16,858 nt of DNA from assembly GCA_023267515.1 (NCBI GenBank), contig JAHFNF010000008.1:1-16858 (forward strand). The letters are read 5' to 3'. Below are positions 3,125-5,431 of this stretch, in pieces. Each line of letters opens with the position of its first letter. Position 1 is the first letter of the stretch. The notes under the pieces were generated by a model that made no database searches, was not told where the DNA came from, and was given only the letters and a program-made list of their open reading frames with translations. This stretch comes from Candidatus Nomurabacteria bacterium. GTDB taxonomy: Bacteria > Patescibacteriota > Minisyncoccia > Phycocordibacterales > UBA9973. The position numbers and the translations under genes were made by a program.

Positions 3125-3162
3125 AAATGTCCCCATTAAAGCCTTTTGGCCCTAATGGGGAC
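3118..3162 (-). terminator. Intrinsic terminator of the 3177-3707 gene
   Basis: A perfect 10-bp stem, GTCCCCATTA at 3129-3138 with TAATGGGGAC at 3153-3162, and an inner GCC/GGC pairing. Read on the minus strand it is followed by ATTTTTATTTT (3128-3118). On the plus strand no T-run follows, so it mainly serves the minus-strand gene, although the stem may also slow the convergent exonuclease transcript. Confidence 0.8.
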
Positions 3163-3176
3163 GGTGTTGAAAACTG

Positions 3177-3707
3177 CTACTCTTTGTTTTGGTAGGGAGC
3201 GATTCGCTCAGAGATGAAAGCTGCCACATTGCTGTTTATATCGTAGATAGTACTACAAAACAAACCTGGCATACAATCCCAATCTGATGACACCTCCAAT
3301 GAGTGAAATTTCTGCTCATTATGCACTATTTCGTATTGCATAACGGCATACTGTTTCAGAAGCACGCTTCCTTGGAGCTCTTCAATGAAATCAATCTGCC
3401 CGATAATGTTGTCAAAGGCATAATTGATTAGAGCAACCCGAAGGACTGTATTCGGAGTTCCTGTATTGACCGGGGCCAGCAACGCTTCAAGGTCAACTTT
3501 ACCAAATCCGAGGGTGAGCATCTGGTCAAACTTTTGACGCCAGTTGATTTCTACAGCCCTGATGCCATAACGGTCAAAACGCGAGTGCGCACTGAGACCG
3601 GCTTGTTTTGTTTCAACAATACCTAAGGAGATCATCCTTGGCTGAAATTTCGCGAGATTTGCCTTCAAGGTATTCTCGATTGTTTTAAAAAAGATTGTGT
3701 CTGTCAT
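3177..3707 (-). CDS. Unrecognised 176-residue soluble protein, singly transcribed
   Basis: I do not recognise this protein. It is a 176-residue, apparently soluble, mixed alpha/beta sequence without a signal peptide or membrane segment. Two cysteines, C145 and C151 in SDWDCMPGLFCS, could form a pair or bind a metal. The middle (VNTGTPNTVLRVALINYAF) and the end (NVAAFISERIAPYQ) look well structured. It is transcribed alone from a strong promoter with a palindrome in its spacer, through a roughly 95-nt leader, and ends at a strong terminator. The ATG at 3707 has no Shine-Dalgarno sequence; the preceding bases are ATCCT. In-frame stops lie upstream, so a longer start is excluded. By eye its base composition seems somewhat richer in GC than its neighbours. 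Confidence 0.72.
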   Translation of the reverse strand: MTDTIFFKTIENTLKANLAKFQPRMISLGIVETKQAGLSAHSRFDRYGIRAVEINWRQKFDQMLTLGFGKVDLEALLAPVNTGTPNTVLRVALINYAFDNIIGQIDFIEELQGSVLLKQYAVMQYEIVHNEQKFHSLEVSSDWDCMPGLFCSTIYDINSNVAAFISERIAPYQNKE

Positions 3708-3738
3708 AGGATTTAAATTTTAAGGTTAGTGTTTAAAA

Positions 3739-3784
3739 GTTGGTTATTTTAGGGCCCAAGCATTTGGGCACAAAAATAACCAAC
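3739..3784 (-). promoter_or_regulatory. Long hairpin in the leader of the 3177-3707 gene
   Basis: A perfect 12-bp inverted repeat, GTTGGTTATTTT at 3739-3750 with AAAATAACCAAC at 3773-3784, encloses a second stem GCCCAA/TTGGGC (3754-3759 with 3764-3769) around a 4-nt loop. Weaker pairing (GTTAG with CTAAC, GTTT with AAAC) continues outward on both sides. The whole leader could therefore fold on itself. Only TTTTAAA follows on the minus strand, so it is a poor terminator by itself. Confidence 0.7.
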
Positions 3785-3800
3785 CAAACCTAACTAACAT
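3744..3800 (-). CDS. Possible 18-residue leader peptide (uORF)
   Basis: An ATG at 3800 lies 9 nt after the -10 box of the following gene's promoter, the same near-leaderless spacing seen at real genes in this window. It opens MLVRFGWLFLCPNAWALK and stops with TAA at 3746-3744. The ORF covers one arm and the loop of the leader hairpin, and its stop lies in the other arm, so translating ribosomes would open the hairpin. It is in frame with the main gene but separated from it by three stops. Two Trp among 18 residues is suggestive but could be chance. The peptide has no recognisable homology. Confidence 0.35.
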   Translation of the reverse strand: MLVRFGWLFLCPNAWALK

Positions 3801-3809
3801 ATTTGAAGT

Positions 3810-3839
3810 ATTATATCACATTTAATGTGTTTAAGTCAA
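3810..3839 (-). promoter_or_regulatory. Promoter with palindromic operator candidate
   Basis: On the minus strand TTGACT (3839-3834), an 18-bp spacer, then TATAAT (3815-3810) form a near-consensus sigma-70 promoter, one of the two best -35/-10 pairs in the window. The spacer contains a perfect 6-1-6 palindrome, CACATT-T-AATGTG at 3817-3829 (plus strand), where a dimeric repressor would block RNA polymerase. The predicted start is near 3803. Confidence 0.75.
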
Positions 3840-3863
3840 GCACTATTTTATTCTTATAAATCT

Positions 3864-5021: not shown

Positions 5022-5093
5022 GGCCTCATCGTCTAACGGTTAGGACAGCGGGTTCTCAATCCGCTAATCGGAGTTCGATTCTCCGTGAGGTCA
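5022..5093 (+). tRNA. tRNA-Glu, anticodon CTC
   Basis: A complete cloverleaf. The acceptor stem is GGCCTCA with TGAGGTC (one G-T pair at 2-71). The D arm contains TAACGGTTAGGAC. The anticodon stem GCGGG/TCCGC surrounds the loop TTCTCAA, giving anticodon CTC. A 4-base variable loop and the T arm CGGAG-TTCGATT-CTCCG complete it. The discriminator base is A73 and CCA is not encoded (CAG follows), so the end must be added by CCA-adding enzyme. The tRNA reads GAG codons. Confidence 0.97.
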
Positions 5094-5098
5094 CAGTG

Positions 5099-5107
5099 TG
5101 CTATAAT
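5099..5107 (+). promoter_or_regulatory. Promoter of the small secreted-protein gene
   Basis: TGC TATAAT begins 6 nt after the tRNA discriminator base and is followed by nine bases and the ATG at 5117, so the predicted leader is only about 3 nt long. The -35 position falls inside the tRNA T arm and is not conserved. Confidence 0.6.
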
Positions 5108-5116
5108 TAAACCATT

Positions 5117-5431
5117 ATGAAATACTTAATACTTTTAGCAATTTTAGTTTTGGGTTGGTGTCCTTGGTTTAAAGCAGACGAAGCAATGCAAATAGTAGAT
5201 ACTCGCATCGCGGAGTTACAAGTTCAGCATGCTGATTTATGCGCGATGAATGTTTTCAAAGACACAATAAAAAAAGTGCCTTTCGGATACACTGAAGAAG
5301 TATCTTATGATTGCCGAGTTACCGACTCTATATATGGAGTACCAGAATCACACAACATAGTCTTTATTACCTTTTTTAAAGGACTAGTCGGTATGCCAGA
5401 AAAAACTATCTCTAATACAGTTTTTCACTAA
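5117..5431 (+). CDS. Small secreted protein of unknown function
   Basis: 104 residues, not recognised. MKYLILLAILVLGW forms a signal peptide or single membrane anchor, with a possible cleavage site after WFKA at residue 20. The rest is soluble and contains C42 and C66, which could form a disulfide outside the membrane; C15 lies in the hydrophobic segment and does not sit in a proper lipobox. The gene has its own extended -10 promoter directly after tRNA-Glu and ends overlapping the convergent murF stop by 4 bp. The reading frame is supported by the promoter position, the signal peptide and the lack of any other gene here, but the product could be lineage-specific. Confidence 0.62.
   Translation: MKYLILLAILVLGWCPWFKADEAMQIVDTRIAELQVQHADLCAMNVFKDTIKKVPFGYTEEVSYDCRVTDSIYGVPESHNIVFITFFKGLVGMPEKTISNTVFH
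5399..5426. terminator. Weak bidirectional terminator between convergent genes
   Basis: AAAAACT at 5401-5407 can pair with AGTTTTT at 5419-5425 over an 11-base loop, at the meeting point of the small plus-strand gene and murF. The stem is only A/T-rich 7 bp, with a T-run in each direction. It lies inside the end of the small gene. Confidence 0.3.

Follow-up and report, generated by a model that had tools for sequence, protein, structure and literature searches.

Leaderless short upstream ORFs of mycobacteria are the closest described case to the locus reported here; one example is a cysteine-rich candidate upstream of cysA2 (PMC4633059). In mycobacteria, a short ORF that begins at the transcript's 5′ end stops ahead of a longer gene and is its proposed regulator; the ORF described here, predicted to begin at or near the 5′ end, may be placed in the same way. 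Unlike the mycobacterial ORFs, ours is a prediction from sequence, and its amino acids show no signature that would link it to a known product. It is also covered by a strong hairpin, and relatives of the host have no recognisable anti-Shine–Dalgarno (anti-SD) sequence. For Corynebacterium glutamicum, PMC10367133 presents a leaderless bicistronic design in which a leaderless promoter drives a two-cistron cassette; our locus would share the leaderless promoter and the two cistrons with it, but that design is synthetic. In Escherichia coli, according to PMC4965119, 5′-terminal AUGs occur upstream of genes led by a Shine–Dalgarno (SD) sequence. At our locus, too, an AUG upstream of a gene is predicted at or near the 5′ end of the mRNA; the E. 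coli genes have an SD, whereas the gene studied here has no visible one.

The locus lies in a window of 16,858 nucleotides, the whole stretch of DNA analysed, which makes up an entire contig; the assembly measures 644 kb. Among the 120 best matches listed for the RmuC protein of the window, entries under the names Candidatus Nomurabacteria, Pacebacteria, Paceibacterota and Patescibacteria share 70–87% identity with it, indicating that the source is a patescibacterium of Nomurabacteria/Paceibacterota-like type. The gene of interest, an orphan, has an ExoX-like exonuclease gene on one side and rmuC on the other. A first-pass annotation of this DNA had described a promoter with a palindrome, a leader with an ORF and a hairpin, the gene and its terminator, and every element of that anatomy is present (Table 1). 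The promoter, the position of the ORF, the hairpin, the terminator and the leaderless pattern of the genome sample are all read directly from the DNA. In trp-type and erm-type attenuators, too, a leader peptide overlaps a leader hairpin. The present locus differs from these in having no leader terminator, competing fold or hidden start.

Table 1. Features of the orphan gene locus, in order of transcription
Feature	Position	Strand	Basis
Promoter P1: −35 TTGACT (3839–3834), 18-nt spacer, TG-extended −10 TATAAT (3815–3810)	3810..3839	−	11/12 consensus bases
Palindrome CACATTAAATGTG, 13 bp, in P1 spacer; possible operator	3817..3829	.	one exact genome copy
Leader ORF MLVRFGWLFLCPNAWALK, 18 codons, ATG 9 nt after −10, stop within 3′ arm	3744..3800	−	sequence; predicted translation
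Leader hairpin over leader ORF codons 3–18 and stop	3725..3794	−	MFE −31.7 kcal/mol, z −4.92
P2, weak −10-like box TAAAAT, 9 nt before orphan gene ATG	3717..3722	−	score 4.87
Orphan gene, 176 aa, function unassigned	3177..3707	−	codon score 0.275
Intrinsic terminator of orphan gene	3129..3162	−	15-pair stem with T-run

Results

Promoter and spacer palindrome

P1 had been described as a near-consensus promoter, and its two hexamers, its spacer and the TG before the −10 box bear this out. The −10 box scores 12.32 in a −10 model whose training set did not contain P1, and the −35 box matches at five of six positions. A simple promoter scan returns 3 promoter-like sites in 1 kb, compared with 2.7 in shuffled sequence, so that only the near-perfect match sets P1 apart. 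The genome sample (41 contigs, 290,943 bases, ~291 kb) has seven intergenic sites that agree with the consensus at 11 or all 12 positions. Assuming a transcription start site (TSS) 7 nt after the −10 box, transcription is predicted to begin at ~3803 and to yield a leader of ~96 nt, in agreement with the ~95 nt proposed earlier.

The palindrome in the spacer had been put forward as an operator. Its presence stands, and two more places in the genome carry it with one mismatch. Its role as an operator is less well founded, as its frequency equals that of chance: comparable palindromes (arms ≥ 6, centre ≤ 3) are found in 364 of 11,097 intergenic 30-mers (3.3%) and in 2 of 61 strong promoters. The P1 promoter string has no copy in viral contigs.

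Translation initiation in the genome and genus

Gene starts were analysed across the ~291-kb sample, where ORFs of at least 100 codons, with the first ATG within 90 nt taken as the start, gave 246 starts. A TANNAT box lies exactly 6 nt before 46 of them. At each of the other distances from 0 to 29, the box is found before 0–7 starts, except at gap 7 (12 starts) and gap 9 (13, partly overlapping boxes counted twice). As a control, internal ATGs show 8 gap-6 boxes among 1,969. The 46 gap-6 sites have the form of a TATAAT box extended by TGC, and their −35 is weak. The majority of starts, 200 of 246, have no box at exactly gap 6.

SD-like tetramers form no peak before the 246 starts of the sample. 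In its first 167 kb, they occur in the SD region of 10 of 136 starts, compared with 7 of 136 in the control region. The 16S rRNA of the organism itself has no match in the assembly. A 16S match was obtained in four of the six relatives searched, and all four tails (L094–L097) read GGAATAATTCAATTTG, without CCUCC. Together, the gap-6 peak, the flat SD signal and the 16S tails lacking CCUCC make the genus look SD-less, with many leaderless genes. Among the matches listed from the open-licence PMC literature, none dealt with patescibacterial initiation that is leaderless or SD-less. In PMC6107228, which surveys 16S tails without an anti-SD, Bacteroidetes, Mycoplasma and Carsonella are named, and the words Parcubacteria and Saccharibacteria are absent.

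Elsewhere in the window (5102–5431, plus strand), a small ORF at 5117–5431 follows the tRNA-Glu gene and falls below Pfam cut-offs. This ORF stands behind the top-listed −10 box of the sample, GTGCTATAAT, at gap 9 and with a score of 13.5, tied with one other box.

The 18-codon leader ORF

The upstream ORF of the earlier annotation, placed at near-leaderless distance from the −10 box and ending within the distal arm of the stem, is present as described. Since leaderless starts seem to be frequent in this genome, the case for the ORF becomes stronger. With a TSS 7 nt past the −10 box, the leader ORF would have a 3-nt leader; the dominant gap of 6 implies none. Two of its codons specify Trp. It is in frame with the orphan gene, 93 nt apart, and three in-frame TAA codons, its own stop included, lie between the two starts. 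Its codon score of 0.129 is at the level of non-coding frames, although 18 codons say little.

An ATG at gap 6–9 follows 12 of the 18 intergenic boxes that score at least 12 (gap 9 in four, P1 included), an excess that at gap 6 is partly circular, since gap-6 starts from this very sample served to train the −10 model. At scores of at least 4.8, the same arrangement is seen for 103 of 730 intergenic boxes, 73 of 957 same-strand intragenic boxes and 41 of 953 antisense control boxes (4.3%). Stricter scores leave a small antisense set, with 1 of 23 boxes at scores of at least 10 and 0 of 1 at scores of at least 12. Lowering the intergenic threshold to 8 gives 54 boxes with an ATG at gap 6–9, 14 of which open ORFs of fewer than 100 codons. 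Judged by eye, several of these 14 look like genuine, known small proteins (L32, SecG and an HTH type). Of the five such ORFs shorter than 25 codons, the leader ORF is the only one followed, within 250 nt, by a gene on the same strand. In L046, an ORF of 45 codons stops 1 nt short of a gene.

The hairpin lowers the accessibility of the leader ORF start to 0.297, a value below that of every one of the 72 leaderless starts used for comparison (minimum 0.302, median 0.589). This poor accessibility, barely below that of the least accessible gene, could equally be compatible with a leader ORF that is not translated.

The leader hairpin

The long leader hairpin of the earlier annotation is more stable than expected by chance. 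Shuffled sequences fold at −15.94 kcal/mol (s.d. 3.2), and 0 of 200 reached the stability of the native leader. By raw energy the hairpin is not rare, as 255 of 27,522 folding windows reach the same value, and ranking by raw energy was replaced by ranking by z. Values of z at or below −4.5 occur in 59 of 4,820 mostly non-coding folding windows of a 167-kb sample, counted after shuffling of the folding windows at −18 kcal/mol or stronger; many of those listed are, by eye, 3′-end terminators or tRNA genes. When the 100 nt following each of the seven intergenic promoters with 11–12 matches are compared, the P1 leader is the most structured. The other six fold at −3.6, −4.9, −7.4, −9.8, −13.1 and −15.9 kcal/mol.

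Folding of truncated transcripts leaves the first 18 nt unpaired up to a length of 68 nt, and by 84 nt the stem, which lies 9 nt from the predicted 5′ end, has fully formed. A loading ribosome and the stem should therefore be mutually exclusive. The layout of the leader supports the earlier idea that ribosomes on the ORF would open the stem, since the hairpin overlaps the ORF start so closely that translating ribosomes and a closed stem would be incompatible.

The leader has no Rfam match at the gathering score, the sole match in the window being the tRNA at 5022–5093. Allowing one mismatch, the hairpin arm occurs only once in the genome, and it has no exact copy in the genome contigs. At E ≤ 1, the leader DNA matches 134 of 147 family genomes, in every case over a short length, and these matches are taken as chance; the best foreign ones are one of 32 nt, upstream of the −35 (E 7e-5), and one of 38 nt, over the 3′ arm (E 2e-4). 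A separate long palindrome was noted between two genes at L052:1741–1848, with the form CCTCACCC...GGTGAGG, an inner stem CCCCTCTCC/GGAGAGGGG and z of −7 to −8.

The orphan gene and its genomic slot

Codon use in the orphan gene is coding-like, its score exceeding that of its other five frames (at most 0.129); for the genes of the sample, the median score is 0.36 and the 5% quantile 0.21. Its GC3 is 0.48, compared with 0.39 for the sample's genes. The gene is followed by a terminator of its own, as had been stated (Table 1). A structure model built from the single sequence has a mean pLDDT of 38.3.

The product had been called unknown, and our searches agree. The orphan protein belongs to no Pfam, NCBIfam or PADLOC family, its best PHROGs match has an E of 0.054, and it has no convincing homologue. 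A search against 5.8 billion proteins, with 48 candidates scored, returned only the protein itself, and no match was found in genome contigs, viral contigs, plasmids or phages. Among the 397 genomes that represent the order, it again matched only itself at E 0.001. Two overlapping sets of genomes (overlapping also with that of the order) gave further candidates that we set aside as chance: one match at E 0.06 inside a 608-aa frame among 147 family genomes, and four at E 0.0037–0.0068 inside 319–1037-aa frames among 379 phylum genomes, in each case alongside the protein itself. In these searches the orphan protein is a singleton, which leaves its leader with no counterpart for conservation or covariation.

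Of the flanking genes, rmuC was found in 72 of 80 genus genomes, and 28 of the 30 rmuC loci fetched also carry the exonuclease gene. The gap between the two exceeds 300 bp in 12 of these 28 loci, the window included (gap lengths are approximate), and tblastn with the orphan protein found it absent from the other 29 rmuC loci. With gap lengths that differ and relatives' loci that do not hold the orphan protein, the exo–rmuC slot is variable. Hairpins with z below −3.5 occur in 7 of the 11 other gaps longer than 300 bp, which makes strong hairpins common in the slot rather than a mark of the orphan gene. In one relative, L021, the slot holds another orphan ORF, whose promoter is canonical and whose leader contains a hairpin of 16 bp. 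We claim no homology of the promoters to P1, as the alignments of L021 and L032 to P1 were equalled by 11 of 200 and 5 of 200 shuffles, respectively, among 11 loci tested.

In the window (3125–3860) and in L006, L008, L021, L026, L030 and L033, the exo–rmuC gap is a variable cargo slot with differing ORFs, and the cargo of L026 includes an NYN-domain gene. Similar GC-rich palindromes of the GCCGCC...GGCGGC type lie inside the gap in four relatives, L015, L030, L033 and L034.

Discussion

A regulatory reading of the leader is plausible. The mechanism that we favour, and hold only tentatively, is early ribosome loading at the 5′ AUG of the growing transcript, ahead of hairpin closure, followed by reinitiation at the orphan gene. 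The strong σ70-type promoter P1 would express this accessory gene from a transcript that, given the inferred TSS, begins ~3 nt before the AUG of the leader ORF. Ribosomes would load at this 5′ AUG, the SD/anti-SD pair apparently having been lost in the genus. Loading on a transcript that has so far grown to only ~70 nt would keep the stem from closing. The ribosome would then terminate at 3744, and the ribosome or its subunits would reinitiate at the AUG of the gene 36 nt downstream. Late loading would instead allow the stem to close over the first codons, and expression would be low. Translation of the leader ORF, the timing gate, the reinitiation and any signal that may use the gate are, like the TSS, what we infer from this layout. 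Reinitiation over 36 nt without an SD, which the favoured model needs, is assumed.

Against early loading with reinitiation, the weak box P2 could serve the orphan gene directly. We regard this as unlikely. Here, the near-leaderless P2 would drive the gene, P1 would yield either a short message of its own or a longer one in minor amounts, and the gene would not be regulated by the hairpin. P2 stands at gap 9 before the ATG, and promoters directly before ATGs are common in this genome, with a gap-6 box in 25 of the 115 genes downstream of a same-strand gene. However, the score of P2 is below the 10% quantile of the training set (5.71; median 10.44), it has no TG and its best −35 match is 3/6. 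P1 is much the stronger of the two promoters, which have no terminator-like element between them.

It also seems improbable that the hairpin works on the RNA itself, by protecting the 5′ end or by serving as a site of double-strand ribonuclease cleavage, with the leader ORF incidental. A long stem with a strong z so close to the predicted 5′ end would suit such a role, and RNase J and RNase III are both discussed in the available review-type text on patescibacterial ribosome biogenesis. This explanation, however, leaves the ATG at near-leaderless distance unaccounted for.

We likewise give little credence to the absence of any regulation, in which a recently acquired orphan sits in a variable slot, the inverted repeat is incidental and the ATG and the palindrome arose by chance. 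The slots of relatives do hold other DNA, and strong hairpins occur in them too. The palindrome is as frequent as expected by chance, the antisense boxes give the rate at which an ATG falls at gap 6–9 by chance, and the GC3 of the orphan departs from that of the sample's genes. What chance would have to produce, however, is a hairpin whose stability was matched by none of the shuffles, sited between a strong promoter and a gene.

Classical leader-peptide attenuation, raised in the first-pass annotation and acting through a terminator/antiterminator or a hidden ribosome-binding site, is very improbable: the leader ORF overlaps the hairpin and has its two Trp codons, but the stem is not terminator-like and is followed by UUUUAAAC, no terminator lies between the leader ORF and the orphan gene, the MFE folds of truncated transcripts contain no competing fold and all lead to one dominant hairpin, neither the gene start nor an SD is sequestered (the start is 18 nt below the stem, in a region of accessibility 0.775), and SD sequences are not enriched in the sample.

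If early loading with reinitiation is true, the locus would show how a cell that lacks SD/anti-SD pairing can equip a leaderless message with a second cistron, or with a switch that depends on translation. That it represents a natural leaderless bicistronic switch in a lineage that has lost the anti-SD and relies on leaderless mRNAs, in which loading competes with closure of a hairpin made from the peptide's own codons, is rather doubtful. The wider point of the finding is the apparent SD-less, leaderless state of the genus, and the sample makes a broader question testable, namely whether leaderless initiation, in combination with a degenerate 16S tail, predominates in this patescibacterial genus.
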